The translations under genes were made by a program, and so were the position numbers. The notes under the pieces are model-generated. The model was not told the DNA's origin and made no database searches. It worked only from the letters and a program-made list of their open reading frames with translations. Shown piece after piece: positions 42,795 to 62,270 of a stretch of 64,000 nucleotides of DNA. Within the stretch, counting starts at the first letter, position 1; every line of letters starts with the position of its first letter. The DNA is from Eubacteriales bacterium. Lineage in GTDB: Bacteria > Bacillota > Clostridia > Lachnospirales > Lachnospiraceae. Where the stretch lies: assembly GCA_030524175.1 (NCBI GenBank), contig JAUNHC010000009.1:91472-155471 (forward strand). The letters are read 5' to 3'.

Positions 42795-43448
42795 TTACTT
42801 CGGAGGTAGTGAATTAGGTTTGACCAGCTTTCCACCGTCAATCTCATAGATTTCATCACAGAGCACTCGAATATCCTCTTGGCTATGGCTTACAAGAACA
42901 ATAGTCTTATCGTGTTCTTTTAAATCAAGCAATAATTCTCTGATTTCTGCGACTCCCTTTCGGTCCAGTCCATTCATTGGCTCATCCAGCAGCAGTAATT
43001 GAGGATCCTCCATAATTGCCTGTGCAATTGCTAACCGTTGTTTCATTCCCAACGAATAATGTTTTACTTTTTTTGTGGATTTCGCATCCAGTCCAACTGT
43101 TTGCAGTATCTTGGCAATTAAATTCGGATTGGGCCGGTTGCGGACGGAATACAAAAATTCCAGATTTTTCTTACCGCTGTATTCTTTCAAAAAAGCAGGC
43201 TCCTCAATAATTACCCCTGCATCCTGTATCATATCCATGTCTTTTTTTAATTTTTTTTCCAGAATTGTTATTTCACCCTCGTCCAAAGTAAGAAAACCAC
43301 AAATGCACTTTAGTAAAACTGTTTTTCCGCTGCCATTATATCCTACTATCCCATATATTTTTCCGGAGGAAAAGGAAATATCCAGGTGGTTTAATACCTT
43401 CTGGCCTTTAAAACTTTTCACCGCATTGCTGACCCTTATTGTTTCCAT
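42795..43448 (-). CDS. Cassette A ATPase (lantibiotic-immunity-type ABC transporter)
   Basis: A 217-residue single-domain ATPase. Walker A is GYNGSGKTV with Val after the Thr; the signature is YSLGMKQRLAIAQAIMEDP and Walker B LLLLDEPMNGLDRKG. These three features, plus GVIIEEPAFL, are shared with the ATPases at 50205 and 57905, so the three are paralogues. The family (LanF/BcrA-like) works with two separate membrane subunits to expel or block peptides at the membrane. It is the last gene of the minus-strand cassette A. Confidence 0.9.
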   Translation of the reverse strand: METIRVSNAVKSFKGQKVLNHLDISFSSGKIYGIVGYNGSGKTVLLKCICGFLTLDEGEITILEKKLKKDMDMIQDAGVIIEEPAFLKEYSGKKNLEFLYSVRNRPNPNLIAKILQTVGLDAKSTKKVKHYSLGMKQRLAIAQAIMEDPQLLLLDEPMNGLDRKGVAEIRELLLDLKEHDKTIVLVSHSQEDIRVLCDEIYEIDGGKLVKPNSLPPK

Positions 43449-43451
43449 GTC

Positions 43452-44294
43452 TTATTCTTCCTCCATCCATTCAAAATCTTTTTTTTTGATACAAAAAAAA
43501 CCAAGAAAAAACACAGTGCACAAAAAGATAGGAAGCATGATACAGACATATTTTTGTGTTGGAGCAAACTCGCTGTATCTTACACCTAATTCTGTAATCT
43601 GCATCCAGGATAGAGGTATAAGATATCGGATCCACGTTGGATAATAATTCTGGATACCAAAAATCAGTGTCATGATCGTTGCAATAATAATAGCTGTCTT
43701 TCTATTTCGAATCAGACTGATGCAAAACATAAGTATCCCGATAAAACATACAACACCCCAACCAATAAGCAAAGAATAGACTATTGCTTCCGCTGGTTCA
43801 TACCGGTTCAGTATCTTATAAGGAACCGCAATTACAATGTCAAACTGCTGTCCGGCATCAGTCAGCGCCAATGTCCCCAGGACACGGTCCCACGACAAGC
43901 TATATTTCAGTATGGGAAGAAGACGTAGCATACAGAGAAAAAACGCTGACAATACAATCAGCAATGAACTGATAACAATATATACAATCTGATCCAGATA
44001 CCATCTGATTTTACCGGTTCTCAATATTACATACAACTGCTCATGGGTAATAAAAGGAGTATCTGAATAAAATACCATGATTTCCAGGAAAAATATCAGT
44101 AAAAAGCCGGCATATGACTGCAGAAAAACATATGCTGCGGGAGTTATTCTTTCACCGGCTGCTGCGCCAAGTGCAGCAACCTGCTGCAGCATCATATCTT
44201 CCGTAAGCCAAAGAATCCCTAACAGAATGACTGTTTTTACATTAAAAATTCGATGACGCAGCAGATGTGTATGAAAGTCCAAATATTTAGCCAT
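43452..44294 (-). CDS. Cassette A membrane subunit 2
   Basis: A 280-residue protein with about six hydrophobic segments. No named family is recognised, but it shares TPFITHEQLYVILRTGKIRWYL with APFVNEQ...VRTQRRAW of the protein at 49364 and MPFVGVG...MRINRAIW of that at 57009. It overlaps the upstream gene by 8 bp and precedes the ATPase by 3 bp. Probably one half of the exporter channel. Confidence 0.82.
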   Translation of the reverse strand: MAKYLDFHTHLLRHRIFNVKTVILLGILWLTEDMMLQQVAALGAAAGERITPAAYVFLQSYAGFLLIFFLEIMVFYSDTPFITHEQLYVILRTGKIRWYLDQIVYIVISSLLIVLSAFFLCMLRLLPILKYSLSWDRVLGTLALTDAGQQFDIVIAVPYKILNRYEPAEAIVYSLLIGWGVVCFIGILMFCISLIRNRKTAIIIATIMTLIFGIQNYYPTWIRYLIPLSWMQITELGVRYSEFAPTQKYVCIMLPIFLCTVFFLGFFCIKKKDFEWMEEE

Positions 44295-45078
44295 TGATAC
44301 ACCTCCTGCCCATTCCCCATCGTGCGGCCTTTTCTATCAGAATCAGGAATATCAACGTGACCAGCACTACCCACCCGAAACAGAGCCAGTCATTTTCCCA
44401 TGGCTTGCTATAGCAGACCTTAAAAATTATGTGTAATTGCAGATATGGTTTTTCTTCCCCAATTCTTGCAAATATATTGATCATAAAATAATACAGAAAC
44501 AATGGCGTTGAAAACACCAGCAGACGATTCGTTATAAATGCTGAGAATGCCATGCCTGCGGCCGTAAGTATTCCTGCAAGCAGGCCAAACTGGAATCCAA
44601 TCATAAAAAGGTAGAAAAAATACTGTTTTGTCTGCAGCAAATGTCCATAACTCTGCATGTAATAATAATTATAATCTGCCCCGCGTAATGTGACAGGAAA
44701 TTTGAAAGACAGAACAAAACAGAACAGCAGGAATCCCACTGTCATTGCTCCGCATGCAGCTGCGAAACAGGTTATTATTTTAGAACGCAGATACTTTTTT
44801 GTGTTTCCCCGTATATAAAGCAGACGATAATACTTTTTTTCGCAGTCTGCACATAGACCATCACCAAAGGAAAATGTACAAAAAGGAATTGTGAGCATAA
44901 CCATACGTCCCCAGAAAACACTATCCACTATATCTATGATTCCTGCCTCTGAGTTAAACATATCTGTACTACAAAAAATAAAAGCGAGAAAGACCCCAAA
45001 AACAGACAGAATCCATTTCCATGAGCCAAAAGCCCGGATGCGGTCCATTTTCCAATAGCTACTTTTAGTATAATTCAT
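44287..45078 (-). CDS. Cassette A membrane subunit 1
   Basis: A 263-residue protein with about six membrane segments. The start ATG at 45078 follows AGGAGAAGAGG and overlaps the lipoprotein gene by 14 bp; an in-frame ATG at 45105 is less likely. Its IPFCTF...KKYYRLLYIRGNTKKYLRSKI region aligns by eye with the P-F/A...K..Y region of the proteins at 48612 and 56201. Cassettes B and C carry equivalents in the same position. Confidence 0.8.
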   Translation of the reverse strand: MNYTKSSYWKMDRIRAFGSWKWILSVFGVFLAFIFCSTDMFNSEAGIIDIVDSVFWGRMVMLTIPFCTFSFGDGLCADCEKKYYRLLYIRGNTKKYLRSKIITCFAAACGAMTVGFLLFCFVLSFKFPVTLRGADYNYYYMQSYGHLLQTKQYFFYLFMIGFQFGLLAGILTAAGMAFSAFITNRLLVFSTPLFLYYFMINIFARIGEEKPYLQLHIIFKVCYSKPWENDWLCFGWVVLVTLIFLILIEKAARWGMGRRCING

Positions 45079-46234
45079 ATATGACCTCTTCTCCTGTAGC
45101 TGCATGAATGATCAATTGCTTCATTGTGTCAACGCCATCTCTTCCGGTCTGTTCATAATTACAGTACCAGACAGGAAGCAGCCGATAAACTTCATCATTC
45201 ACAGCTTCGGTCATAAAGCTAAATCGAAATTCTCTGATGCTCACCTTATCTCCGGTAATTGTGAGTCCAAATCTCTTTTTTACCGCATTTACAATATCTT
45301 CAAAAGGAAGCATTTTCCAGGACTTATCGGTTTTCGTAATTTGGCCGAAGATGCGTGTGAGTTCCAGCATCTGTATTCCGGATTTGTCTATATAGGCCAA
45401 AACATTTGCGGTGTCTGCTTCACCCTCTATTCCGTTTCCGTAATATGTATTGGCAAAAACAGTATTTCCATCAATACACTGCACGGCCGAAATGTAATAA
45501 CCGTTGTCCTCCTCACTCCAGATTTTATCCTTTTCTTCACTTCTGACATCATCCCGATTTTTATTTTTTTCGTCCTCTTGCTCCAAGGTCTTATAATTCA
45601 TATAGAAAATTGTAGGTTTCAGTTCTGTTTCCACACCAAGCTTCTGAAGTGTTTTACACAAAGCTTCCCAATTTTCTTCGGCTGTGCCAAAGGCAAATTG
45701 CTGTGGCTTTGTGTACAGTTCCGCGTTATATGCCAAATCTTTTCGCGACAATTCTATGGCATTTTTGACTTTTGCCCAGTGCGTTTTCTCCATACGGAAC
45801 ATTCCTATATTATTTGACATTATTTCGTCCTGTCCGCCATATGCACTTTGATGTAAGCTGTTTTCTGGCTGAAGAATTATTTCCTCTTTTTGTATGTTAT
45901 CCACATCTGAAAATAGTTCTTCCAGAGCCGTATTAAAATCTACGACCATATAAGTTACCTCAATTTCTGCATTTTCTGCCTTTAGACCTATTGGGGGAAC
46001 AATGTCTGCGTGAAAGCTTAAGGTATCATCTACATCTTCCTCATACACTTTCGGAAACGTAAGAGGTGTCTCTTTAGTGATCTCATTGGTGATTTCAATG
46101 GAAGTGTTTTTTAAATTATCAGCATTCCTCTTTTGCTTATCACTATCACAGCCTGCCATTAGTGCTACAGACAGCAAAATAGACATAAAAATTATCATGG
46201 TTTTATTTGCCACTGTCTTATGCTTCCTTTCCAT
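45065..46234 (-). CDS. Cassette A lipoprotein
   Basis: A 389-residue protein. LMAGC at residues 25-29 is a proper lipobox, so it should be anchored to the outer face of the membrane by Cys29. The C-terminus has LLPVWYCNY and IIHAATGEEV, matching IPVWNV..INAVDGS of the cassette B lipoprotein and LPVWDF..INAIDGT of the cassette C protein. The fold is not recognised; the C-terminal segment recalls PepSY/YycH-like domains (DUF6034-like). As in lantibiotic systems, a surface lipoprotein next to an ABC exporter suggests immunity or substrate capture; this is inference. Confidence 0.82.
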   Translation of the reverse strand: MERKHKTVANKTMIIFMSILLSVALMAGCDSDKQKRNADNLKNTSIEITNEITKETPLTFPKVYEEDVDDTLSFHADIVPPIGLKAENAEIEVTYMVVDFNTALEELFSDVDNIQKEEIILQPENSLHQSAYGGQDEIMSNNIGMFRMEKTHWAKVKNAIELSRKDLAYNAELYTKPQQFAFGTAEENWEALCKTLQKLGVETELKPTIFYMNYKTLEQEDEKNKNRDDVRSEEKDKIWSEEDNGYYISAVQCIDGNTVFANTYYGNGIEGEADTANVLAYIDKSGIQMLELTRIFGQITKTDKSWKMLPFEDIVNAVKKRFGLTITGDKVSIREFRFSFMTEAVNDEVYRLLPVWYCNYEQTGRDGVDTMKQLIIHAATGEEVIYELY

Positions 46235-46328
46235 ATCGGCATTTTCAAATAATAGATAACAATATTTCTAAGCATATAAATGGATTTGTATTTTTATCTA
46301 ACAATTATACCGATTTATCATGTAAGAT

Positions 46329-46742
46329 TTACGGGGTATATCTACCCTCTACATATATAGGCTGAGCTGTGGGCCCGTCAATAAAATTTGCAAATAAATA
46401 ATAGTAATAATTTGAGGGGCAGGCACCACCGTAGGTATACTTCTTCAGTACATTGTTGTTGCTCCAATAAATGGTTACAAAGCCTCCTACTGCCGGTTTA
46501 TTACTCTCAGTAATTATACGATGTGGCTGAACTTTGTAATTCTGATTTCTGGAAAAATAGGTTGGCCGCACATAATATATGCTTTCATAAGCACTTCCGC
46601 CAGCCTTCATAGTGCGTTTTGTTGCATCGGTGGTACCCCCACCTAGATTGAAATAATAATCCGTTGTATCTGCCGAAACAGTCACTGCAAATACGTTGCA
46701 CAAGGTAACAACAAATAATAATATCTTTAATAGCCTTTTCAT
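46329..46742 (-). CDS. Cassette A small secreted protein
   Basis: A 137-residue protein with a signal peptide (1-24, ending TVSA|DT) and a mature part of about 113 residues rich in Tyr, Asn and Gly. The mature start DYYFNLGG matches QFYFNLRN of the protein at 47120, and the C-terminus YVEGRYTP matches VSGRFWLYP of that at 52788. ATG 46742 follows AGGAGG; an upstream TTG (46748) lies too close. It is the first gene of cassette A. The family may be DUF2712-like, uncharacterised small secreted proteins; I cannot confirm it. Confidence 0.8.
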   Translation of the reverse strand: MKRLLKILLFVVTLCNVFAVTVSADTTDYYFNLGGGTTDATKRTMKAGGSAYESIYYVRPTYFSRNQNYKVQPHRIITESNKPAVGGFVTIYWSNNNVLKKYTYGGACPSNYYYYLFANFIDGPTAQPIYVEGRYTP

Positions 46743-46835
46743 TTTCAATCCTCCTAGTTTTTAGATATAACGTAAAATCCATTTATATGCCTTTGGCGGT
46801 GGTGTTGCCTTATTAATTTGTATTACGTACAGAAG

Positions 46836-46845
46836 TACAACTGTA
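46836..46845. promoter_or_regulatory. BlaI/MecI-like operator dyad
   Basis: TACAACTGTA fits the TACA-NN-TGTA core of BlaI/MecI operators. It is about 95 bp upstream of the cassette A protein. A BlaI-like repressor is encoded at 50896. Confidence 0.4.
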
Positions 46846-46960
46846 AACATACATTAACATATATATATTGAATGTTCAATACATTGCTTTCTTAAAAATA
46901 GACAAAATTTATCTTTGGATTTTATTAGTTTTCACATATTGAAAATGTTTACGAAACATA

Positions 46961-47004
46961 ATACAATATGCAATATGTATTACAAACTATAATACTAACT
47001 ACAG
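46961..47004 (+). promoter_or_regulatory. Cassette B promoter with overlapping dyads and CTAACTACAG box
   Basis: TATAAT lies at 46988-46993 with a poor -35 region that overlaps an ATACA...TGTAT dyad (46961-46980). CTAACTACAG (46995-47004) covers the predicted start site. The same 10-mer occurs at 50862-50871 before the blaI-like gene, consistent with one repressor acting on both. Confidence 0.45.
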
Positions 47005-47119
47005 GAAATTGTGAAACGCCTACTTACTTATAATTAACGGAAGGAGGTTGGTCTTTTTTAGTGCAGTTGAGATAAAACTTATTTGATAATGAGCAGCAAT
47101 TCTAAAAAAGGAGAAATGA

Positions 47120-47542
47120 ATGATGAAAAGAAAAGTGGTAAAATTATTAGGAGTTGGATTAGTTAGTGTGTTACTTACAACAACAAATGTGCTAGCTTCC
47201 TCGCCACAGTTTTATTTTAATCTTAGAAATACCGGCCAGAATTTCCAGATAGATTGGGATTCTGCAAATAATAAGGTATATGCGGGGCAGGATTGGACAT
47301 TTAAACCCTTACATTTAAACACTGGATCTTCCCCTTATGGAATGTTATTTGCACCGTATGGCAATGGAACTGTATATACAAGCGCACAGATATGGCGGAA
47401 GACAGGACAATATGATAAGAAATACGTTCCTTTTTCTAATGGTAAGAAAGGAACACACTATTTATCATCACGTATTGATGATGATTATAGTGGGCCATTT
47501 GCTACGGATGGTTGGTGGAACGCAGATAGAGCATCAAGCTGA
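47120..47542 (+). CDS. Cassette B small secreted protein
   Basis: A 140-residue protein (139 if the second ATG is used). The signal peptide covers residues 1-27 and ends VLA|SS. The mature part starts QFYFNLRN like cassette A's DYYFNLGG, is rich in Gly, Tyr and Trp, and ends DGWWNADRASS. It has no Cys. It is followed 15 bp later by the lipoprotein gene. Function unknown; by position and size it is the likely exported peptide or the ligand of the system. Confidence 0.8.
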   Translation: MMKRKVVKLLGVGLVSVLLTTTNVLASSPQFYFNLRNTGQNFQIDWDSANNKVYAGQDWTFKPLHLNTGSSPYGMLFAPYGNGTVYTSAQIWRKTGQYDKKYVPFSNGKKGTHYLSSRIDDDYSGPFATDGWWNADRASS

Positions 47543-47557
47543 TGAAAGGAAAACTTT

Positions 47558-48622
47558 ATGAGAAGAAAAGGAATCACATATCTCGTACCGTATTGTGTAA
47601 TTGCAGCAATGATGCTGAGTGCCTGTGAGAAGGCACCGGAAAACACGGTGAAGGACGGTGCTTTGGTATCAGAGTCAACAGATAATAAGGTTAAATCCGC
47701 AAATGACTCAAATGCAAAGGAAAGAGAGCGGCTGTCTCCGCAGGAAATACTCCAGTCTTTTCCTTCGCATTATACAAAAGAGTTTTCAGCGGGAACGAAT
47801 TGCCTGTGTGTGGATGCGGATATTGTGATTCCAGCTCAAGACATAAAGCTTTACCAGGCTGATGTGCTTTTGGATCCGTGGTCGGAAGAGCAGGTACGGG
47901 TAGTTTCTGCGAAACTGGAGGAGGCGGGACTGCTTTCTGGAAGTGAATTACCGGAGGCTTTCGACTACACATCCCAGGTACCCCTGGTAGGTATTACTTA
48001 TTCAAATTCAGATTTATCAAAACAGGAAAAATCCGGCACTTTGCAGGGCGGACAGGAAGAGGAATTCTCCCAATATCTGGAGGACTTTTGCCGGATATTC
48101 GCTGCGAGTGGGCTGCCGGTCAGGGCAGAACCGCAAAATGATATGGAGGGAAATTGGGATGGCAGAACCTATTCGTTGGCCGCAACGTTTGAGGAGATTC
48201 CGCTGGCAGCAGGGTTTCCGGCTACGGGAACCGGGAGAATTATAAATGAATTTACAGGTGGTTCTGTGACCTTTTCTGAGGATGGAATTGTAGACTTTTT
48301 TATGAATGAAAAATTTAATTTTACCAATCAGGAGGAGTGCAAATCGCTGGCATCCATGGAAACGATTGCCAACACCCTGCAGGCGGCCCTGGATTCCGCG
48401 GAATTAATCTTTTCCAGGGATTTAAAGGCTGTTAAGCTTTCATTGGAATATCTGATTGTCAGTGAATCGGAACATCTGCAGATGATACCGGTCTGGAATG
48501 TGACATTTGATGTGGACGCTTACTATCATGCACTGGAAGAAAGCACGGATCAGGAACAGAAAATGAGCATGATGAATTTGTGCATCAATGCGGTAGATGG
48601 AAGTGTGGCCTATGCATCGTAA
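47558..48622 (+). CDS. Cassette B lipoprotein
   Basis: A 354-residue protein with lipobox MLSAC (Cys23), hence membrane-anchored outside the cell. The mature part has FPSHYTKEFSAGTNCLCVDADI, similar in position to FPKVYEEDVDDTLSFHADI of the cassette A lipoprotein, and ends with MIPVWNV and CINAVDGSVAY, the segment shared by the three paralogues. It overlaps the start of the next gene by 11 bp. Possible role: immunity or substrate-binding partner of the exporter. Confidence 0.83.
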   Translation: MRRKGITYLVPYCVIAAMMLSACEKAPENTVKDGALVSESTDNKVKSANDSNAKERERLSPQEILQSFPSHYTKEFSAGTNCLCVDADIVIPAQDIKLYQADVLLDPWSEEQVRVVSAKLEEAGLLSGSELPEAFDYTSQVPLVGITYSNSDLSKQEKSGTLQGGQEEEFSQYLEDFCRIFAASGLPVRAEPQNDMEGNWDGRTYSLAATFEEIPLAAGFPATGTGRIINEFTGGSVTFSEDGIVDFFMNEKFNFTNQEECKSLASMETIANTLQAALDSAELIFSRDLKAVKLSLEYLIVSESEHLQMIPVWNVTFDVDAYYHALEESTDQEQKMSMMNLCINAVDGSVAYAS

Positions 48623-49367
48623 GTGGGATCAAAATATTTATCTGGAGGATTTGAAAAAGGCTGTGGGAAACGTCGGCTTTGTTATGGGCGTGGTGGTACT
48701 GACTGTAATTTTGATGCGGACGGTTCTTGTGTTTGCCAAAACGCCGGGAACAACTCCTGTATTGGAAATCTGTTCGTTTCCCATGGCTCTGTCCGGTTTT
48801 ACAATTTTTTCGGCGGCCTTTCCTTCCTGGGCGTATGCGAATCAGTATTATAAAGAAGCAAGGAATCATTATGATTATTTTGTTGTGAGCCGGATGTCGT
48901 GGAAAAAATATGGCGTCATGCGCATTATTTCTGTGAGTATTTCCGGTGGTTTGATTATGGCAATTCCTTTGGCAATCGTTTTTTCTTATTCTTATATGAT
49001 AGGAAGCCGGGAACTGGGTTATCTTTTTGAGGGTATGAAAATAAGAGTGGTCATACAGAACCTTGGAATTCCCATGGTGCTTTGCATCAAGACGGGACTG
49101 GGATTTCTGTTCGGTGCTTTCTGGGCGCTGGTGGGATTTTTGTCATCCTTTCTGCTGAAGAACAAATATGCACCGTTTTTAATACCATTTGTTTTAAGCC
49201 AGTTTTTCTGGGTTATTTTCCAGGACTATCCCATGCTGAACCCCAATCACCTTGTCCGCGGTGAAAACCTGGATTCTTATGGACTTTCCGCATTCCTGCT
49301 TTTCGTATATGTTTTTATTGCAGCACTTTCTATTTTTCTGGCTTTTTTGAGAAAGGAGAACCAGTGA
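48612..49367 (+). CDS. Cassette B membrane subunit 1
   Basis: A 251-residue protein with about six membrane segments, encoded with an 11-bp overlap with the lipoprotein gene. ATG 48612 is preferred over the in-frame ATG 48597. It has FPSWAYANQYYKEARNHYDYFVVSR in the loop after the second segment, equivalent to the YKSHF...K region of cassette C's subunit. It pairs with the protein at 49364. Confidence 0.8.
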   Translation: MHRKWDQNIYLEDLKKAVGNVGFVMGVVVLTVILMRTVLVFAKTPGTTPVLEICSFPMALSGFTIFSAAFPSWAYANQYYKEARNHYDYFVVSRMSWKKYGVMRIISVSISGGLIMAIPLAIVFSYSYMIGSRELGYLFEGMKIRVVIQNLGIPMVLCIKTGLGFLFGAFWALVGFLSSFLLKNKYAPFLIPFVLSQFFWVIFQDYPMLNPNHLVRGENLDSYGLSAFLLFVYVFIAALSIFLAFLRKENQ

Positions 49368-50179
49368 GCATGTTTTCCTCCCTGAGAATTTTGCAGCATC
49401 AGATGAAATTTGAGAGACACACGGCAAGAGTGTGGCTTGGGATAGGGATGGGGATGGCATTGTGTGTCCATATCCTGGTAAGGGTTTCTGCGTACAGTGC
49501 GGCAAGAGGGGAGCCGGTCAATGTTATGGAAGGCTTTTTGTATTGTGTGCTGGAGCCTCAGAACATGATGCTGCTCTCCCTGGGGTATCTGTTTCTCATA
49601 TCCGACGCCCCCTTTGTCAATGAACAGACGCTGCAGGTGGTTGTACGGACACAAAGAAGGGCATGGAATACCGGATGTCTGCTGTATATTGTGGCGCAGG
49701 CCTGTTTTTATTATCTGGCCTTGCTTGGTTTTTCCATGCTCCTGCTTGGGAAACATGGATATATCGGAATGGCCTGGAGTATTCCCACGGTTCAGGCATC
49801 CCAAAATATAAATGTGATCATATCAAATTTCCGGGTCAGTTTTCCTTATTGGGAGTTTATCCAGGAAAATACGGTGATAAGTGCGGTTGCCCTGACTCTG
49901 TGGGGGAATATTTTATATTCCTCCATGCTGGGAGGAATTCTGTATCTGGGAAATCTGGGAAGCAGATATTCATTGGGAACATGGATGGCCATCGTGGTTC
50001 ATTTTTCAGGATATATCACCAGGAGAGAGTGGAATGGGCAATGGTCTTTACAGACCTTGTCCTCTCCGGCGGAAAATGATAATTTTTGTCCGTTCTATAT
50101 TATTTTCCTTGTGATTGCCCTGGCTTCTTACTGGAGGGCCAAAAGAATGGATTACCATATTGTGGATAAGGATACTTGA
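49364..50179 (+). CDS. Cassette B membrane subunit 2
   Basis: A 271-residue multi-pass protein starting at GTG 49364, which overlaps the previous stop (GTGA) and sits 7 bases after AGGAG; ATG 49370 is an alternative. The loop DAPFVNEQTLQVVVRTQRRAWNTG is conserved with the second subunits of cassettes A and C. Followed 25 bp later by the ATPase. Confidence 0.82.
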   Translation: MSMFSSLRILQHQMKFERHTARVWLGIGMGMALCVHILVRVSAYSAARGEPVNVMEGFLYCVLEPQNMMLLSLGYLFLISDAPFVNEQTLQVVVRTQRRAWNTGCLLYIVAQACFYYLALLGFSMLLLGKHGYIGMAWSIPTVQASQNINVIISNFRVSFPYWEFIQENTVISAVALTLWGNILYSSMLGGILYLGNLGSRYSLGTWMAIVVHFSGYITRREWNGQWSLQTLSSPAENDNFCPFYIIFLVIALASYWRAKRMDYHIVDKDT

Positions 50180-50204
50180 GCGTGTTACAGGAAAGAGGGA
50201 CAAA

Positions 50205-50846
50205 ATGGAGAAGCTGACATTTTCTCATGTATACAAAGGCTTTCGCAACGGAATGATTTTAGAAGATGTAAATATGGAGTTTGCACCCGGAAAAATATAC
50301 GGATTTATTGGTCCGAATGGTTCAGGCAAAACAGTGATTCTAAAAATGGCAGCGGGACTTCTGTGCCCTACAAAGGGCAGCATTTACCTTGATTCCCAGA
50401 TGCTTGGAAGGAATATGGATTTTCCGCCAAGCATGGGTGTTTTAATAGAGAATCCGGGGTTTCTCGCCCATGATACAGGCCTTCAGAACCTTCTTTATCT
50501 AACAAAAATAAAGGGACTGATAGGGAAGCGGGAGGTAGAGGAGGCAATGGACAAGGTCGGTATTCTTTACGCTGCCAACCAAAGGACGGGACAGTATTCC
50601 CTTGGGATGAAGCAGCGCCTTGGTATTGCACAGGTTATCATGGAAAATCCGGAATTGTTGATTTTGGACGAGCCAATGAACGGATTGGATCAAAAGGGGA
50701 TTGCGGAAATCCGGGCTCTTTTGTTGGAACAAAAAAGTCAGGGGAAATTAATATTACTTGCCAGTCATGCACAGGAGGATATAAAGCTTTTGTGTGACCA
50801 GATATATGTTATTCAGGACAAAAGAACGCAGGTTATGCAGGGTTAG
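50205..50846 (+). CDS. Cassette B ATPase (lantibiotic-immunity-type ABC transporter)
   Basis: A 213-residue ATPase: Walker A GPNGSGKTV, GVLIENPGFL, signature YSLGMKQRLGIAQVIMENP, Walker B LLILDEPMNGLDQKG. I start it at ATG 50205; the longer frame to 50115 overlaps the permease and has no ribosome site. It is a paralogue of the ATPases at 42795 and 57905. Confidence 0.9.
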   Translation: MEKLTFSHVYKGFRNGMILEDVNMEFAPGKIYGFIGPNGSGKTVILKMAAGLLCPTKGSIYLDSQMLGRNMDFPPSMGVLIENPGFLAHDTGLQNLLYLTKIKGLIGKREVEEAMDKVGILYAANQRTGQYSLGMKQRLGIAQVIMENPELLILDEPMNGLDQKGIAEIRALLLEQKSQGKLILLASHAQEDIKLLCDQIYVIQDKRTQVMQG

Positions 50847-51267: not shown

Positions 51268-51270
51268 AAT

Positions 51271-53168: not shown

Positions 53169-53208
53169 TTGTTTCTTAATACTTGCTTAAAGACTATTTG
53201 ATTATGGT

Positions 53209-53245
53209 GTCTGCGGAGACCCGGTATTCTGCCGGGTTCCCGCAG
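53209..53245 (+). other. Strong intercistronic hairpin in cassette C
   Basis: Fifteen bases (53209-53223) pair with 53231-53245, with one mismatch and one G:T pair, across a 7-base loop. There is no T-run behind it and the next ribosome site follows at once. It probably stabilises or limits the transcript so that the small protein is made in excess. Confidence 0.65.
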
Positions 53246-53260
53246 AAATGAGGAGATGTA

Positions 53261-54749: not shown

Positions 54750-54815
54750 TTCTACATGAGATAAATCTTTTTACTATTTGGGTTGTCGGAAAAGGGCAAC
54801 GGAATGGAGCGCATT

Positions 54816-56204
54816 ATGAAAAAAAAAGGTATTGTTTTGCCTATGGTTTTAGTTTCGATTTTAACTTTATCAGCATTCCAAAAAACACCTGACGCACCAA
54901 TTATAGCAAACAAAAAGGATGGCAATTTAGAAAAAGCTATATTGTCGAAGGATGAACCAAAAGAGACCCTGAATCCGGAACTGGAATGGAAAGAGCAATT
55001 AACCAGCGCGGATAAGAAGGTAACGATCAGCGTAGACGCTGCAGTTGAAGGACCGGAGGTATCCCGGATTTCGGTCGTATCCTGTATGCCACACTATTTT
55101 ACACTAGATGAAACAAAAAACGCAATAAAGATATTTTACGGTGATACTACGCTTTATGACAATTCTTTAAGTGATAAGGACTGGCTTGAAACGGAAATCA
55201 TAAAAAGCAGGACAGATCTGGAATACTTAAAAAGGAATAGTGAATATCCAAAGATAGAAGGACAGGAAGCGCAGAGAGTAGTACTTAATCTGGAAGAAGA
55301 AATTGCCTGGCTTGAGAATAAGATTGCAAGGCTGGAAGCTGATTATCAAACTGTTTTAGATGAATCAGAAGGCATCGCAGAAATTGAATTGAAAGAAAAT
55401 GAGAATGGTTCAGAATCTGTAAATGTGAGAGACAGTCAATTGCCGCCAATGCAGTTCTATGTTTTTAATGATAAGAATGTAAATGATTCGGCAATGGGGT
55501 ATGAGATGACAGGAAGTGATTTTTCGTCGAGTACCCCGTTGCAGTCAACGGAGCAGCTCAATATAAATATTTCAAGAAAGGAAGCTGAGCAAAAAGCACT
55601 GGAAGTGGCTTTATCGTGCGGCATTCCTGAATGTAAAGTTATGTCTGCAGCCGAAGTGCAGATAAATGGACAATCAAGTTATGTGTTTACGATGGGAAGG
55701 CTAGTCGGCGGAGTACCAAGTATGCCGGTTTTCAACTATGATGGGACGCGGGCATTTGGAACTGACGGCGAAGAATATAGAGAACCTTGGAGACAGGAAA
55801 ATATTCAAGTTGCAGTTAATGATAAAGGCGTGGTCGGTTTCCTGTGGGAATATCCGCCGGAAATCCTCAAGGTACTGAATCAAAATGTAGCATTGCTGTC
55901 ATACAATGAAATAAAGGAAATAGCGAAAAATCAACTCCAGAGAACTCAAACTGCAGATGAGTTTGAACTAAATATCAATGGTGGGAAAGTAGTGGAAATA
56001 AACAGAATTGTATTTAGTATGATGCGCGTTGCTCAGAAAGGATCTCAAGATAGCTATTATTATCTGCCGGTATGGGACTTTTTGGGGAAAACTGTTGATA
56101 ATAATATGGAAACACAGGAGGATGCTGTTCCCGTATCCGAAAAGTCTTTTCTGACAATTAATGCAATTGATGGAACGATTATTGACAGAGGATTAGGATA
56201 TTGA
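54816..56204 (+). CDS. Cassette C lipoprotein paralogue that has lost its lipobox cysteine
   Basis: A 462-residue protein with an N-terminal hydrophobic segment ending TLSAF, where Phe21 (TTC, 54876-54878) stands where the cassette B paralogue has the lipobox Cys (MLSAC; TGC/TGT). A central stretch at about 145-180 is predicted coiled coil (NLEEEIAWLENKIARLEADY). The C-terminus YLPVWDF and LTINAIDGTII is the segment shared with the other two lipoproteins. Without Cys it would be either secreted or held by an uncleaved signal anchor. ATG 54816 follows GGAG. Confidence 0.82.
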   Translation: MKKKGIVLPMVLVSILTLSAFQKTPDAPIIANKKDGNLEKAILSKDEPKETLNPELEWKEQLTSADKKVTISVDAAVEGPEVSRISVVSCMPHYFTLDETKNAIKIFYGDTTLYDNSLSDKDWLETEIIKSRTDLEYLKRNSEYPKIEGQEAQRVVLNLEEEIAWLENKIARLEADYQTVLDESEGIAEIELKENENGSESVNVRDSQLPPMQFYVFNDKNVNDSAMGYEMTGSDFSSSTPLQSTEQLNINISRKEAEQKALEVALSCGIPECKVMSAAEVQINGQSSYVFTMGRLVGGVPSMPVFNYDGTRAFGTDGEEYREPWRQENIQVAVNDKGVVGFLWEYPPEILKVLNQNVALLSYNEIKEIAKNQLQRTQTADEFELNINGGKVVEINRIVFSMMRVAQKGSQDSYYYLPVWDFLGKTVDNNMETQEDAVPVSEKSFLTINAIDGTIIDRGLGY

Positions 56205-57016
56205 AGAACAATGCTTTTTCAGCGGACATGGATTGTGCTTTAAAATCACGGGGATTTGTTGCTGGTACAGTTGGTATGGCAGCAGCAGCTTTTTTCAGTG
56301 TGTTTCAACAAATACTGCCCGTGTTTCAGGGGCAGTATGCGGAAACAGGATTGGACAAAGGATTCGTGATGCGTTTGGTGTTTACCGCATTATCCTCCGA
56401 TTTGGTTTTATTGGTGTTACCGATTTTGTGTACGCTTCCCTTTGCTTCGGCATTTTTAGATGATTACAAAAGTCACTTTATACGCAAATATCTGCCACGT
56501 GCTGGAAAGAAAAACTATGTAAAAGCGAAGGTTTTTACGACAGCTCTGTCAGGCGGGCTAACACTTTTTATCGGTGCAATTTTAGTATTTCTTGTTTTTG
56601 CTATACTATTTTTTCCGATGGAAACGACAACAGAGGCATCTGAAGCATTCAGATTGGACACACAGTTAACAGAAAATGAATTAACAGCACAAAAAAATTT
56701 TGTAAAGTTTATGATGCAGGCATTTGTCTTCTTTTTAAATGGATGTTTCTGGTCATTAGTAGGTGGTATACTGGCAGCTGTAACCATGAGCAGGTATATG
56801 GCTTATGCTTCTCCTTTTATTTTATATTATGTACTTGTCATATTTTCCAAGCGATATTTTGATAAATTATATGTGTTAAATCCACAGGAATGGATAAATC
56901 CTGTTTCCGATTGGGTAGGAGGAATAAAGGGCGTTGTTTTATTCATTGTGGAATTAATCATTACAGTGGGATTTCTATATAGTTATTTTATTGAAAGGAA
57001 ATTACAGGATGTGTAA
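56201..57016 (+). CDS. Cassette C membrane subunit 1
   Basis: A 271-residue protein with about six membrane segments. It starts at TTG 56201, overlapping the previous stop (TTGA); the first ATG is at 56228. LPFASAFLDDYKSHFIRKYLPR and TTALSGGLTLFIGAILVF match the loop and following segment of the cassette B subunit at 48612. It overlaps the next gene by 8 bp. Confidence 0.8.
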   Translation: MKNNAFSADMDCALKSRGFVAGTVGMAAAAFFSVFQQILPVFQGQYAETGLDKGFVMRLVFTALSSDLVLLVLPILCTLPFASAFLDDYKSHFIRKYLPRAGKKNYVKAKVFTTALSGGLTLFIGAILVFLVFAILFFPMETTTEASEAFRLDTQLTENELTAQKNFVKFMMQAFVFFLNGCFWSLVGGILAAVTMSRYMAYASPFILYYVLVIFSKRYFDKLYVLNPQEWINPVSDWVGGIKGVVLFIVELIITVGFLYSYFIERKLQDV

Positions 57017-57905
57017 ATTGAGGCAGGTATATGCTGTATGCAATTATAATTTTTGCCAATGGCATAAAAATCCGCGTATTTTTATTACGTTTTCACTTGC
57101 TTTTATTCTTTGTTATCTTCTTTCTGAAAAAGCTGTGGGATTTGCAGAGGAATACGGTACAACTATGCAGCTTGTGGAAGCTTTTGTATGGACATTTGGG
57201 GATGCTACAAACATTATGCTTTCGTCACTGCTTCTGATACTTCTGTTTGCAGATATGCCGTTTGTTGGAGTTGGAACACCATTTTATTTGATGCGCATTA
57301 ACCGCGCGATATGGGCTTGGGGGCAAATCATTTATATTATGCTTGCCACTGTGCTGTACATAACGTTTATTCTGGTAGTAACATCTTTAATTTGTGCAGA
57401 TAACAGTTTTGTTGGAAACATGTGGAGTGAAACTGCAGCGATGCTTGGGTATTCAGGACTGGGGGAAATGGTTGCTCTTGCATCGTCTGTAAAAACAATG
57501 GAAATGTCCTATCCATATGAGTGTATGGCGTTTATATTTTTACTCATGATTTTATATACACTGTTGATGGTATTGATTATGCTTGTTGTAAATTTGCGAA
57601 AAGGTCAGTTTTGGGGCACGGTTAGTGTATTTGCTTTTAGCCTTTACGGTTTATTGCTTAACCCCCAAATGTTTAAGCAAATTTTTGGCTTATCGGATCA
57701 GCTTATGTATAAAGCAAATTTAGCAGTAGGATGGCTATCGCCACTTAATCATGCCACGTATTATATGCACAATTTTGGATATGATCTTTTGCCGCGCTTG
57801 TGGCAAACTTGTGTTATATTTATAGGATTGATAACAATGTGTTTTTTTCTCATACTGAATTCCATGAGAAAATACAACTTTAATTTTACGGGAAGTGAGA
57901 TTTAG
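57009..57905 (+). CDS. Cassette C membrane subunit 2
   Basis: A 298-residue multi-pass protein. ATG 57009 follows GAAAGGAA; the frame extends to TTG 56991 but that lies in the ribosome site. The loop ADMPFVGVGTPFYLMRINRAIWAWG corresponds to that of the second subunits of cassettes A and B. Its stop (TAG) overlaps the GTG start of the ATPase. Confidence 0.8.
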   Translation: MCKLRQVYAVCNYNFCQWHKNPRIFITFSLAFILCYLLSEKAVGFAEEYGTTMQLVEAFVWTFGDATNIMLSSLLLILLFADMPFVGVGTPFYLMRINRAIWAWGQIIYIMLATVLYITFILVVTSLICADNSFVGNMWSETAAMLGYSGLGEMVALASSVKTMEMSYPYECMAFIFLLMILYTLLMVLIMLVVNLRKGQFWGTVSVFAFSLYGLLLNPQMFKQIFGLSDQLMYKANLAVGWLSPLNHATYYMHNFGYDLLPRLWQTCVIFIGLITMCFFLILNSMRKYNFNFTGSEI

Positions 57906-58549
57906 TGGAAGATATAGCAATTAGAATAGAACATGTATATAAAAAGTTTAATGGAGATGTTGTGCTGAATGATATCAATCACAACTTTGAGCGTGGAAAA
58001 ATACATGGGGTTGTAGGTAATAATGGTTCGGGAAAAACAGTGCTGTTTAAATGTATTTGCGGTTTTATGTTTCCTTCCAAAGGGAGAATATTTATTGATT
58101 ATGAGCAGGTGGGTGTGGATATAGACTTCCCGGACGACATGGGCATTATTATTGAAACACCCGGTTTTCTTCCAAATATTTCAGGGTTTAAGAACTTGCA
58201 GATATTAGCGAGTCTTAAAAGAAAAATCGGAAATAGGGAAATAAGAAAGGCAATTCAGCAGGTCGGACTTGATCCTGATATAAAAAAACATGTTGGTCAA
58301 TATTCTCTCGGTATGCGTCAACGCCTGGGTATAGCACAGGCAATCATGGAGGATCCCGCATATCTTATTTTGGATGAGCCGTTCAATGGTCTTGATAAAA
58401 ACGGTGTCAGAGAGATGAGGATAATAATTAAGGAACTATGTGCGAAGGGGAAAACAATATTACTTGCTAGCCACAATGTTATTGATATTGAAGAACTGTG
58501 TGATACAGTCTGTGAAATAGACAGGGGAATACTAACAGTGATCAGGTGA
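57905..58549 (+). CDS. Cassette C ATPase (lantibiotic-immunity-type ABC transporter)
   Basis: A 214-residue ATPase with GTG start. Walker A GNNGSGKTV, GIIIETPGFL, signature YSLGMRQRLGIAQAIMEDP, Walker B LILDEPFNGLDKNG. It is a third paralogue of the ATPases at 42795 and 50205, and closer to cassette A in the CICGF segment after Walker A. The following MacB-type ATPase starts 4 bp later. Confidence 0.9.
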   Translation: MEDIAIRIEHVYKKFNGDVVLNDINHNFERGKIHGVVGNNGSGKTVLFKCICGFMFPSKGRIFIDYEQVGVDIDFPDDMGIIIETPGFLPNISGFKNLQILASLKRKIGNREIRKAIQQVGLDPDIKKHVGQYSLGMRQRLGIAQAIMEDPAYLILDEPFNGLDKNGVREMRIIIKELCAKGKTILLASHNVIDIEELCDTVCEIDRGILTVIR

Positions 58550-58553
58550 GAGT

Positions 58554-59261
58554 ATGGAGAAAAATATACCAATTATTAGTCTGCGTAATGTAGTGAAAAT
58601 ATATAAAACAAGAAAGGTACGATTTAAGGCTTTGGATAATATCAGCCTTGATGTGTATCCTAATGAATTTGTTGCTATTGTTGGAACGTCAGGCAGTGGA
58701 AAATCTACTATGCTGAATCTTATAGCGGGATTAGAAAAGCCAACGGCAGGGAAAATCTTTGTAAAAGAGAGGCCTGTGCATAAGATGAGTGAGGATGAAC
58801 TTGTGGATTTTCGGCTAAAGCACGTGGGATTTATTTTTCAAAATTTTAATTTGCTGGATTCTCTTACGACTCTTGAAAATGTGGCGTTTCCATTAATCTT
58901 GCGTGGAGTATGGGAGAAAGAAAGTTTGAAAGCAGCAAAGAAAATACTGAATGACTTGAGCTTGCAGGAACATCTTCAGCATTATCCTGATGAATTGTCC
59001 GGAGGACAGCAGCAGCGTGTTTCTATTGCAAGAGCTATTATTACCCATCCTCAGATTATTTTTGCTGATGAACCGACCGGAAATCTGGACAGTTGTACGG
59101 CGGAACAGATTATGAATATTCTGAAAGAAATTGTACACCAGAGGAGCAGTACTCTTTTGATGGTAACGCACGACATGGAGAAGGCGAAGTATGCTGATAA
59201 GATTGTCCGTATTGCGGATGGAGTTATTGTCAATGTAGAAACAAGAGAGGAACAGGTATGA
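58554..59261 (+). CDS. MacB/LolD-type ABC transporter ATP-binding protein
   Basis: A 235-residue ATPase: Walker A GTSGSGKST, Q-loop FIFQNFNLLDSLTTLENV, signature LSGGQQQRVSIARA, Walker B IIFADEPTGNLDS. This is the MacB/LolD/FtsE class, different from the other cassette ATPases. It overlaps the next gene by 4 bp (ATGA) and works with the permease at 60987. Family members export peptides, antibiotics or sense peptides; the substrate here is unknown. Confidence 0.93.
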   Translation: MEKNIPIISLRNVVKIYKTRKVRFKALDNISLDVYPNEFVAIVGTSGSGKSTMLNLIAGLEKPTAGKIFVKERPVHKMSEDELVDFRLKHVGFIFQNFNLLDSLTTLENVAFPLILRGVWEKESLKAAKKILNDLSLQEHLQHYPDELSGGQQQRVSIARAIITHPQIIFADEPTGNLDSCTAEQIMNILKEIVHQRSSTLLMVTHDMEKAKYADKIVRIADGVIVNVETREEQV

Positions 59262-60976
59262 AAAAGGTAATTCTGGCCATGGTATGTGTTCTGATAGTGT
59301 TAATGCCGAATACAATATTGGCAAGTAATGAAAATGAGTTATTATTTTCAGACAAATCCATCTCGGATATGTCGGCTGACAGTGAATGTGATTTTTCATT
59401 TCAGGAAGGTATTGACACCGACAAAAAAAATGATAGCAATAACAAACTAGTAGTTACTAACGAATTTGTTCCTGATACGGGTTTGAGTAACGAAAATAAT
59501 TTGCCATGTCCAATTGAACCGCGTCCAGACATTGCCCAGGGGAAAATATTGAGCATTGACAATGAAAATGTATATGAAAAAATGAATAAAACATATGACG
59601 AGGGGTATTATCCAATTGTGCAAAATGAGACTGCTACGTTAGTGCTGCCGCTTATTGCCTCTGGAGACATACTGAATGATCAGATTCGTGTGAGGTTTGA
59701 TTTAGGTGATGCTGTTTCTTCACCGTTTAGGTTTGATAATTATGATAAAACAGTGATGCTGCAAAGCCATCCTGTTAATAATGGTGTTAATGTAGTTGAT
59801 TCATTTTTAATTTCAGTGGATATACCATTAGTTGAAAATTGGACAGAAGGCCGATTCCTTGTAAATGTCAAAACAGCAGGACAATGGGCGGATGGTTCTC
59901 CTTTCTTACAGGAGTTTCCATTGTATGTTACGTTAGTTGCGGAAACTGATTCTAGTGATATCCTTTCTCCGCCATTAAGTCCGGTACCACAACCGGAAGA
60001 AGTGCCACAACCTGTACCAGAGTCAGGAAACTTGTCAAAATCGGAACCTGCGGAGGAACAGCCGGTTCCCCAGGCGAAAATCATGCTGGAGAGTTTTTCA
60101 GTAAATCCATCTTTTGTTATGACAGGTGAGGAATTTAGTATCTTAGCAGTTTTTAGAAACACAAATAAAAAGCAGTCTTTGAATAATGTGAAAATAACTG
60201 TGACAGGAGAAACGACGGATGTTATTCCTGCCGGGGGTGATGATACGGGGAGTTTCTACTTTGAAAGAATTGCCAGCCAGGGCGCTGCTGCCATTGATAT
60301 GAAAATGAAGGCGGCGTACAATGCAGAAGCAGGGCCACATAAAATAAAGTTTGCTATAGAGTATGAAGGCAATAAAGCAATGGCATATACAACAGCAGAA
60401 GAGGCTTTGGTACAAATTATGCAGCCTGTACGGCTAGAATTTGATGAACCTGAGATACCTAAGGAAGTTAATGCGGGTGATACAATATTAATTTCTTTAA
60501 ATGTAATGAATCTAGGGCTTGATATGGTACATAATGTTCGGATGACGGTGAAAGCACAGGGATTAGTGCCAGAAAAAACGGTGTTTTTAGGTAACATAGA
60601 AAGTGGTGCAGCTAAAAAAGGTGATTTATATGTTTTTGTCGAAACGCTGAACATGTCTGATTCAAAGACGATAAAAAAAGATGGTAATTATGGTGTGACA
60701 GAAGGGAATGTTATTTTGCTCTATGAAGATGAATATGGACAGGAATATACGAAGCAATTTGGGGTTCGTACAAACATTAATCCACCTGTGATTTTGACTA
60801 AAAAAGAGTCTGAGGAAGAGGAAAAACCTAAGAACCAGGGGCAATGGTGGATTTCTGTGATTATTTTTGCAGGGATTATCGTTTCATTTGCAGGCATACG
60901 CATATATACCAGAAAAAAGAAAGAGAGGATTCTCCGTCAGGAAGATGATGATTTGATTGGAGATTCACAATATTAG
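59258..60976 (+). CDS. Surface protein with Ig-like/CARDB-type repeats between MacB-like ATPase and permease
   Basis: A 572-residue protein. Signal peptide 1-24 (ILA|SN), an N-terminal beta-rich domain, a Pro/Glu-rich linker around 235-275 (PVPQPEEVPQPVPE), two Ig-like domains (about 275-380 and 390-500, with VFRNTNKKQSLNNVKITVTG and LNVMNLGLDMVHNVRMTV) and a C-terminal membrane segment (about 528-548) followed by KKKER. The two repeats resemble the COG1361/CARDB 'S-layer' domains that sit next to MacB-like transporters in Bacillota and archaea. It occupies the place of the HlyD-type adaptor and may be the extracytoplasmic partner. Confidence 0.82.
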   Translation: MKKVILAMVCVLIVLMPNTILASNENELLFSDKSISDMSADSECDFSFQEGIDTDKKNDSNNKLVVTNEFVPDTGLSNENNLPCPIEPRPDIAQGKILSIDNENVYEKMNKTYDEGYYPIVQNETATLVLPLIASGDILNDQIRVRFDLGDAVSSPFRFDNYDKTVMLQSHPVNNGVNVVDSFLISVDIPLVENWTEGRFLVNVKTAGQWADGSPFLQEFPLYVTLVAETDSSDILSPPLSPVPQPEEVPQPVPESGNLSKSEPAEEQPVPQAKIMLESFSVNPSFVMTGEEFSILAVFRNTNKKQSLNNVKITVTGETTDVIPAGGDDTGSFYFERIASQGAAAIDMKMKAAYNAEAGPHKIKFAIEYEGNKAMAYTTAEEALVQIMQPVRLEFDEPEIPKEVNAGDTILISLNVMNLGLDMVHNVRMTVKAQGLVPEKTVFLGNIESGAAKKGDLYVFVETLNMSDSKTIKKDGNYGVTEGNVILLYEDEYGQEYTKQFGVRTNINPPVILTKKESEEEEKPKNQGQWWISVIIFAGIIVSFAGIRIYTRKKKERILRQEDDDLIGDSQY

Positions 60977-60986
60977 GTAAGCATAC

Positions 60987-62270
60987 ATGAAAGCAAAAAA
61001 CCTTCTAAAATTTGCTGTTTTCGGATTAAAGCGCCGCAAAGCCCGAACTAGTTTGACTGTGTTGGGAGTGGTTATCGGTACAGTATGTATTGTTCTAATG
61101 TTTGCAATAGGTCTTTCAAACTATAGACAATTTGAGCAGAATATGCTCTCGGATCAAAGCCTGTTAGAGATAACGATTAACAATTATTATGACAGTACAA
61201 TGAAAAACGGAATCACGGACAGTATAATACAATCTATTAGTACCTTGCCGCATATTAAGACGATATCGCCTGTGATAGAATTTCCCGTGACCATAGTCGC
61301 AGGAAATTATCAAGCAAACCTGCAGCTTAAAGGAATTGCGCCTGAGGCTTTGAATGTGGTATTTGACAAAGGCTGTGGCTTTAAAGACAGCAATGCTATT
61401 TTTCCAATCGTGTGCGGCGGAAATACTGTTCAGCAGTTCATTGATCCGCAAAATCCACCAAATTATGCGGATTTTAATGCCATGGAAAACTATAGCCCTG
61501 ATATTGATTTGATGAATACAGAGATGGTAATGTCTTTAGGTATGGGGATAGAGGATTCTGAAATGCCATTATCACAGCAATACCGGGTAACAATATCAGG
61601 GATTACTGAAAAATCTTATAGTGAATCAAGCTACAGTACGTATATTGATATTGATTCTGCAAAACAGATTCTTATGGAAAACCGGGAACTTGCAGAAGAA
61701 ATGGGGCTTAGTATAAGTTCATATAATACAGTGAAAATTATAGTAAATGAGATGGATAATGTGGAGACCGTTTTGCAGGAAGTAAAAAAGTTGGGTTATG
61801 AAACTCACAGCCCTACGGAATCTATTATACAAATACAGGAAGAACAGGCGCGCCAGCAGGGTCAGCTTTTTGCAATAGGGTTTATTTCACTTTTGGTATC
61901 AGCGATTGGAATCGCGAATACCATGTATGCAAATATATTGGAGCGCAGACGTGATATTGGGATTATGAAGGTGTTAGGAATGCGAATATATCTGATTCGC
62001 AATTTATTTATGACGGAAGCAGCTTTAATTGGTCTGCTGGGAGGCTTGATCGGTATAGGAATTAGTTATATTATAACTATAGTAATAAATGTGAGTAATT
62101 CAGAAATATCTTTTTTAGGAATGCATTTTTCGGAGGGGATAGTAGTGTCCATACCCGTCTGGCTTTCAGTGGCGGCTATATTTATTACAATGGTGGTAGG
62201 AATTTTATCAGGTATTTATCCTGCATATAAGGCGACAAAAATGAGCGTACTGGAGGCAACGCGGAAGTGA
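60987..62270 (+). CDS. MacB/FtsX-type ABC transporter permease
   Basis: A 427-residue permease. One membrane segment (about 20-40, LTVLGVVIGTVCIVLMF) is followed by a roughly 250-residue extracellular MacB_PCD domain, then three C-terminal segments with ANTMYANILERRRDIGIMKVLGM, the FtsX coupling motif. It lies 10 bp after the Ig-domain protein. With the ATPase at 58554 it forms a mechanotransmission-type exporter. It is the last gene of the long cassette C operon. Confidence 0.93.
   Translation: MKAKNLLKFAVFGLKRRKARTSLTVLGVVIGTVCIVLMFAIGLSNYRQFEQNMLSDQSLLEITINNYYDSTMKNGITDSIIQSISTLPHIKTISPVIEFPVTIVAGNYQANLQLKGIAPEALNVVFDKGCGFKDSNAIFPIVCGGNTVQQFIDPQNPPNYADFNAMENYSPDIDLMNTEMVMSLGMGIEDSEMPLSQQYRVTISGITEKSYSESSYSTYIDIDSAKQILMENRELAEEMGLSISSYNTVKIIVNEMDNVETVLQEVKKLGYETHSPTESIIQIQEEQARQQGQLFAIGFISLLVSAIGIANTMYANILERRRDIGIMKVLGMRIYLIRNLFMTEAALIGLLGGLIGIGISYIITIVINVSNSEISFLGMHFSEGIVVSIPVWLSVAAIFITMVVGILSGIYPAYKATKMSVLEATRK

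Follow-up and report, generated by a model that had tools for sequence, protein, structure and literature searches.

Repeated cassettes joining a small secreted protein to a lipoprotein and an ABC transporter with two permeases in a Lachnospiraceae genome: a candidate bacteriocin-like system with self-protection

We analysed a stretch of 64,000 nucleotides (hereafter the window) from contig JAUNHC010000009.1 of a Lachnospiraceae bacterium (assembly GCA_030524175.1) and find in it an island with three cassettes, A (46748 down to 42795, minus strand), B (47120–50846) and C (52773–58549), in each of which a small secreted protein is accompanied by a large extracytoplasmic protein, which in A and B is a lipoprotein, and by an ATPase of the ATP-binding cassette (ABC) type with two permeases. 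The open frames lie where an initial annotation of the window had placed them, each cassette opens with the signal-peptide protein, and the multi-copy modular unit proposed there is upheld. The literature searched, which included few subscription papers, yielded no description of such cassettes. We give even chances to the reading that they encode Sec-secreted, envelope-acting, bacteriocin-like proteins for which lipoprotein and pump serve as self-protection. The core genes are as follows.

46329–46748, minus: A_small, small secreted protein (signal peptide by sequence, family hidden Markov model (HMM) match; likely start 46742)
45065–46234, minus: A_lipo, lipoprotein with lipobox LMAGC (YycI/5COZ-like model)
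44287–45105, minus: A_p1, permease subunit 1 (paralogue of C_p1)
43452–44294, minus: A_p2, permease subunit 2 (cross-cassette homology, conserved loop)
42795–43448, minus: A_atp, LanF-like ABC ATPase (TIGR03740, 177.8 bits; cut-off 309.75)
47120–47542, plus: B_small, small secreted protein (family HMM match; mature part matches L157 at E 1e-12)
47558–48622, plus: B_lipo, lipoprotein with lipobox MLSAC (weak DUF6034 match, PF19499 25.8 bits, cut-off 27)
48597–49367, plus: B_p1, permease subunit 1 (cross-cassette homology)
49364–50179, plus: B_p2, permease subunit 2 (cross-cassette homology, conserved loop)
50205–50846, plus: B_atp, LanF-like ABC ATPase (TIGR03740, 177.9 bits; 50205 is a chosen start)
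52773–53168, plus: C_small, small secreted protein (marginal family HMM score; likely start 52788, chosen)
54783–56204, plus: C_lipo, DUF6034 protein with LSAF instead of a lipobox Cys (PF19499, E 2.3e-56)
56201–57016, plus: C_p1, permease subunit 1 (cross-cassette homology)
56991–57905, plus: C_p2, permease subunit 2 (cross-cassette homology)
57905–58549, plus: C_atp, ABC ATPase of the clade bearing M_sec (NCBIfam scan, ATPase tree)

In all-against-all comparison (database of 22 proteins) the three ATPases are 46–51% identical (E 1e-63 to 1e-69), so that A, B and C are not recent copies of one another, and all three contain the motifs NGSGKTV and YSLGM(K/R)QRL. The claim that the membrane subunits can be paired across cassettes held for permease 2 in every combination (B–C, E 8e-9; A–B, 5e-6; A–C, 2e-3) and for permease 1 only in part, A–C (8e-7) and B–C (7e-5) matching directly and A and B, which gave no direct match at E ≤ 10, being linked only through C. 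The loop ascribed to permease 2 is conserved as P-F-[IV] ... R ... W, and five copies show no variation at P80, R92 or W98; the PVW...NA..G ending ascribed to the large protein does not extend to A, which reads PVW...HAATG. The most likely start of A_small, 46742, is an ATG 6 nt downstream of AGGAGGA.

Linkage of the small gene to the rest of the cassette was examined in 145 genomes, with no more than 28 candidates from each being scored. Small proteins that are unrelated and lie elsewhere without the ABC genes had been named at the outset as grounds for abandoning a common module; instead, all 37 strong matches (E ≤ 2.6e-9, a limit set after inspecting the list) adjoin cassette genes. A permease-2 match lies within 9 kb in 34 of the 37, and the other three (G034:C15 and two on G047:C260) adjoin, by eye, a lipoprotein-like open reading frame on contigs without a permease-2 match.

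Gene order was read in 61 stretches around permease-2 matches of relatives and the source genome, around the best 80 of at least 579 confirmed ATPase relatives and in two of 93 candidate viral-contig stretches (L001-type labels denote loci, and C9 and C87 contigs of the source genome). A simple script called the genes, and the HMMs used for tagging were trained on the same loci, which makes the tags of members partly circular. The permease-2 HMM strayed to other membrane proteins (268 matches), and a lipobox pattern that proved too strict (17 of 38 matched) was discarded. Duplicate, overlapping or off-topic rows were removed (L090, L164, L115 and L004 for the counts on 32 and 110 cassettes, L057 and L059 as well for that of 139), and four small genes were tagged by hand in the cassette, Mantel and adjacency counts. 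Thirty small-bearing loci contain 42 small genes, and 28 of these have a lipoprotein gene directly 3'. Moreover, contig C9 of the source genome (L010) has five small genes and three lipoprotein genes with a single ABC module, three of the five small genes directly preceding a lipoprotein gene, a pattern of joint duplication of the pair; contig C87 (L011) carries a lipoprotein–ABC set without a small gene. By Mantel test, small-protein distances correlate with those of the lipoprotein (rho 0.32), of permease 1 (0.34) and of the ATPase (0.38; p 0.002 each, 29 cassettes, 500 permutations, with a null that ignores phylogeny), a pattern that inheritance of the cassette as one unit would produce. 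At L106:2299–8304 the ABC module is preceded by four consecutive lipoprotein-family genes.

Pairwise similarity among the small proteins of A, B and C is confined to the first ~35 residues, that is, to the signal peptide, which in these proteins is of the Sec type as judged by sequence. Family membership was assessed with a leave-window-out HMM built from 40 non-window members with the signal peptide removed (six doubtful members excluded, two added). A_small scored 24.5 bits and B_small 21.7 bits, each with none of 1000 shuffles as high, and C_small 9.3 bits, with two of 1000 shuffles as high (best shuffle 13.6); by these scores A_small and B_small are clearly assigned to the family and C_small is a marginal candidate. 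Mean column identity is 20%, no Pfam or NCBIfam family matched more than one of 27 small proteins scanned (E ≤ 0.1), the best single match (one member to PF02812, E 7.9e-5) being taken as chance, and comparison with Protein Data Bank (PDB) sequences gave no match (best E 1). An AlphaFold2 model of A_small is all-beta with seven strands, at low confidence (predicted local distance difference test, pLDDT, 59.4). The ratio of nonsynonymous to synonymous substitution rates (dN/dS) is 0.04–0.52 in five small-gene pairs and 0.32 in one lipoprotein pair; the small genes are therefore real genes under purifying selection.

For A_lipo, AlphaFold2 (39 sequences) gave a model with pLDDT 79.2 and a predicted template modelling score (pTM) of 0.75, which in Foldseek was matched best by 5coz (E 3.5e-16) and by YycI (11 chains of 2o3o, E 1.4e-6 to 1.2e-5), with no LanI title recognised among the best 50 of 504 matches. 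A sequence profile (A9) independently matched 5coz (E 1e-19) but not YycI. The predicted fold is thus like that of YycI and of EUBREC_2869 (5coz); YycI differs in belonging to the WalRK system, and the 5coz entry is titled 'uncharacterized'. In C_lipo, Phe takes the place of the lipobox Cys, and this protein may be secreted or otherwise anchored. The source genome has a second DUF6034 protein (L004:8940–10337), which by eye follows a two-component system and stands without ABC genes.

The best-scoring NCBIfam family of all three ATPases is TIGR03740, lantibiotic protection, at 172.5–177.9 bits against a cut-off of 309.75, short of LanF membership. Neither permease matched LanE, LanG or any other permease family in Pfam and NCBIfam (E ≤ 1 for A and B, E ≤ 0.1 for C), which also argues against housekeeping permeases of different families, the alternative that had been raised for them. 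The likeness to LanFEG/LanI drawn in the initial annotation is therefore an analogy in gene arrangement (a single ATPase, separate genes for two permeases and a lipoprotein alongside, to go by the available text of PMC5786555) and fails as family membership; a probable difference from those systems is the YycI-like model of the A lipoprotein, and no lanthipeptide precursor or modification gene was found among the island proteins scanned. LanFEG-type pumps clear lantibiotics from the producer membrane (PMC5786555, same portion). A closer precedent for the small protein is mediterrocin, according to the accessible part of PMC12345188 an unmodified, signal-peptide-bearing bacteriocin of a Lachnospiraceae species (Mediterraneibacter) encoded in a cluster that includes an ABC gene: the cassettes resemble it and the lactococcin 972 family in combining an unmodified small signal-peptide protein with an ABC gene, and the weak model of A_small is beta-rich. 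They differ from that family in the type of ABC transporter and in the extra lipoprotein. Neither its domain (which we take to be PF09683/TIGR01653; 27 small proteins scanned with Pfam and NCBIfam, E ≤ 0.1) nor its seven-helix DUF1430 partner (island membrane proteins scanned) was matched. The cassettes are thus members of neither LanFEG/LanI nor the lactococcin 972 family.

Sequence comparison instead identifies as their nearest true relatives the DUF2712–DUF2705–WxPxxD–DUF2705–ABC operons of Bacilli, a counterpart on which the initial annotation was silent. All eight DUF2712 loci read contain DUF2712, an ATPase (231–249 bits with a five-copy window-type ATPase HMM), a permease matched by the permease-1 HMM (40–108 bits; L183 was among its training loci) and a further two membrane genes. 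The eight are virus contig L183, whose small protein is DUF2712 (E 1.9e-19) and which was reached via its ATPase and is not independent, the Priestia plasmids L184 and L185, reached via DUF2712, and five from 150 genomes in the taxonomic order to which the genome of L140 belongs; four further DUF2712 matches in Listeria or phage records lie outside the eight. In L197 the DUF2712 gene is 3' of the ABC genes instead of leading. By hhalign, the five-copy permease-1 profile matches the Bacilli permease 1 (96.1%, E 3.4e-9); no such link to Bacilli families emerged from profile comparison for permease 2 or for the small proteins in their mature form (1.4%). The Bacilli operons thus share with the cassettes a small signal-peptide protein and a homologous permease 1 and ATPase, and differ in having three membrane proteins (DUF2705 in five of six first and third permeases scanned with Pfam), where A and B have two permeases, and no lipoprotein; some clostridial relatives of the cassettes have a third transmembrane gene. 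That the small proteins are themselves DUF2712 was rejected: a 96.5% full-length profile match fell to 1.4% once signal peptides were removed (0.3% for the B-type alone), and there is no DUF2712 match in the source genome or among the 27 small proteins. A shuffle test left a small excess (median 0.95 versus 0.0 bits, P 2e-5, with sequences not independent; eight of 46 within the top two of their own 50 shuffles). We take the Bacilli operon to be yybNMLKJ of B. subtilis, where a DUF2712 match is present. The literature mentioned above had nothing on DUF6034 or DUF2712 and nothing relevant on DUF2705 or WxPxxD. In the available portions of the papers, the yybN region is postulated to be horizontally acquired and is Rok-bound like sdp and sunA (PMC2978689, PMC11841835), the operon is termed 'of unknown function' (PMC11841835), and YybJKL are listed as unknown, YybJ being an ABC protein (PMC11466899).

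Cassette C is of another lineage, likewise not noted in the initial annotation. It additionally has two membrane genes (53261–54749) and is followed downstream by M_sec and two further genes.

53261–54049, plus: C_x1, membrane protein (without relatives among the loci read)
54024–54749, plus: C_x2, membrane protein (without relatives by phmmer among the loci read)
58554–59261, plus: MacB/LolD-type ATPase (TIGR02211, 237 bits, under the cut-off of 307.75)
59258–60976, plus: M_sec, secreted protein, hydrophobic near its C-terminus (phmmer relatives, C-type clade)
60987–62270, plus: MacB/FtsX-type permease (PF02687, E 5.5e-20; PF12704, E 3.2e-9)

M_sec has 33 homologues among the other open reading frames of the loci read (phmmer) and adjoins 29 of 139 cassettes, whose common ancestor in the ATPase tree has 42 leaves (support 0.951), window C included. 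The tree and this downstream gene assign C to a separate clade, A and B being of the other kind; among the 29, only window C has a recognised A/B-type small gene. A response regulator and a histidine kinase precede the core in the three C-type loci scanned (L045, L072 and L111), and in L103:6403–6873 and L108:207–674 (both C-type) and L102:7699–8337 a PG_binding_1 protein replaces the small secreted protein, which suggests that the latter is connected with the wall. L102 has the ATPase and M_sec of the C-type, and permeases were not seen between its lipoprotein and ATPase.

The GC content of the island (0.36–0.45 in 2-kb steps) is lower than that of the preceding DNA (0.42–0.50), and the contig terminates where the window does. 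By eye, sugar genes flank the island (aldolase, rhamnulokinase and rhamnose isomerase at 38003–42674, a sugar epimerase at 62383–63255). Among 41 genomes, rhamnose isomerase was matched in six and the epimerase in 22; no second genome had both flanking-gene matches on one contig, and no empty insertion site was seen. PADLOC gave one weak match among ten island proteins (E 0.0043, 50 residues of A_lipo).

Different cassettes adjoin different regulators: Agr-type, BlaI/BlaR1 or other two-component systems. In the window, a BlaI/BlaR1 pair (50896–52563) that the initial annotation did not mention sits between B and C.

46749–47119, no strand: A/B intergenic region between the divergent small genes (contains TACANNTGTA at 46836–46845)
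50896–51267, plus: BlaI-family repressor (PF03965, E 7e-22)
51271–52563, plus: BlaR1-family M56 protein (PF05569, E 2.5e-31)

An agrB/agrC-like gene lies within 9 kb of 13 of 32 small-bearing cassettes (13 loci) and of 27 of 110 without a small gene, and BlaR1 within 9 kb of eight of 32 (in four loci, the window contributing three of these cassettes) and seven of 110, counts that are not independent and in which the agrC HMM may catch other GHKL kinases. All six AgrB candidates scanned are PF04647. Next to the C9 module are a GHKL kinase and AgrB (PF04647), and a LytTR regulator with a GHKL kinase is also present in both L042 and L182. The nearest neighbour of B_atp on the tree is the ATPase of L078, which has BlaI/BlaR1 alongside and no visible small gene. 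The adjacent regulators may control the cassettes. A BlaI operator between A and B is weakly suggested by TACANNTGTA, presumably the BlaI-box consensus, whose sole exact occurrence in the window (0.69 expected by chance) falls there; the double motif had no match, and of ten other loci with BlaR1 or BlaI-like genes four have any match, at no shared position. L182, an IMG/VR contig, combines its LytTR regulator and GHKL kinase with AgrB, a lipoprotein, two permeases and an ATPase; since it is classed as viral, the module may ride mobile elements. Similar one-helix proteins of 95–114 residues (L010:10235–10528, L043:6969–7256, L047:9400–9744) were seen by eye in or beside Agr-linked cassettes.

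The relationship of the ATPases to lantibiotic pumps and the joint duplication of lipoprotein and small genes lead us to favour bacteriocin-like proteins with self-protection. The small protein (~100 residues, probably beta-rich) would exit via Sec and act on the envelope of neighbouring Gram-positive cells. The surface lipoprotein, with the YycI/5COZ fold of the model, would bind its cognate small protein outside the producer membrane, and the LanF-type ATPase with its two permeases would clear the small protein from its target site or protect that site. The regulator governing expression would be interchangeable: an Agr-type system, BlaI/BlaR1 (as beside B in this island) or a different two-component system. 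A Sec-type signal of its own makes the pump unneeded for exporting the small protein; of the peptide export, immunity or kin recognition envisaged in the initial annotation, pump-driven export of this protein is therefore not required. Support comes from the linkage of all 37 strong matches, duplication of the pair, joint divergence, purifying selection and TIGR03740 as best family, and further from the C-type cores near histidine kinase/response regulator pairs, the PG_binding_1 proteins, the same plan in Bacilli and the mediterrocin precedent.

Several points weigh against this proposal. Bacteriocin activity, immunity and binding are drawn from gene evidence, the model of the small protein is poor (pLDDT 59) with no PDB structure match at E ≤ 0.001, and the dN/dS of the five pairs gives no sign of diversifying or positive selection on the small genes. 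Linkage is one-way, since a recognised small gene is present in 35 of the 139 cassettes and lacking in 104 (loci read), and permease 2 is present in 39 of the 145 genomes. A further 56 weaker small-protein matches (E 3.2e-7 to 1e-3) lie mostly distant from cassettes; many are in longer frames, one (G080:C7) is 2 kb from a permease-2 match, and one (L215) is a 159-residue secreted protein with no cassette gene within 1.5 kb on either side. We take these as mostly signal-peptide matches. Nor is the lipoprotein universal, because no recognised lipoprotein gene accompanies four of the 32 small-bearing cassettes (six of 30 loci in a second count) or any of the Bacilli DUF2712 loci. Finally, YycI is a kinase regulator of the WalRK system, which favours a role in sensing.

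That role can be framed as kin or density sensing, with the small protein as ligand, the lipoprotein relaying to the ABC transporter or the adjacent regulator, and no killing. The YycI-like fold in the model and the Agr-like and BlaR1 genes near 13 and eight of the 32 small-bearing cassettes point this way, as does L116, where a 696-residue BlaR1-like M56 protein with a long outer part (L116:3524–5614) stands directly 5' of permease 1 in the lipoprotein's place. The outer part, however, is not matched by the lipoprotein HMM, and a BlaR1–lipoprotein fusion is unlikely. Moreover, Agr-type systems use a peptide signal of their own, Agr-like genes also lie near cassettes without a small gene, and sensing does not need an ATP-driven pump with two permeases; we regard this alternative as unlikely. 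Marginally less likely still is a module of the Cpr kind for resistance to antimicrobial peptides or envelope stress, with the small protein as a wall-bound decoy or accessory of the resistant cell. C-type cores without a recognised small gene adjoin histidine kinase/response regulator pairs in three relatives, as in Cpr-type lantibiotic resistance (PMC5786555, available text); the window itself differs in having BlaI/BlaR1 and no adjacent two-component system. The PG_binding_1 proteins and the presence of BlaI/BlaR1, typical of wall stress, would also fit, but joint duplication of small and lipoprotein genes and the variety of the small proteins are unexpected of a generic decoy. That the ABC transporter and lipoprotein are devoted to exporting the small protein, or to maturing it outside the cytoplasm, would explain why its gene is linked to the cassette genes, and is improbable in view of the Sec-type signal peptides, the many cassettes without a recognised small gene and the lack of a peptidase domain in the window ATPases and permeases scanned.

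Returning to bacteriocin-like proteins with self-protection, we propose more tentatively, at somewhat less than even chances, that the cassettes represent a large class, so far undescribed, of antibacterial proteins that Clostridia secrete via Sec without modification and that have a branch in Bacilli, comprising many sequence types, each with a cognate YycI-like lipoprotein and a LanFEG-like pump, and placed under quorum-sensing (Agr) or wall-damage (BlaI/BlaR1) control by regulator swapping, with at least four units (A, B, C and C9) stacked in one genome. If this is so, BlaI/BlaR1 regulators would be tied to something besides beta-lactamase, DUF6034 proteins and the uncharacterised structure 5COZ would gain a role, the yybN-type operon of B. 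subtilis, to which a 2024 review assigns no known function, would gain a testable one, and gut Lachnospiraceae and their relatives would own a competition system invisible to the Pfam and NCBIfam models tried.

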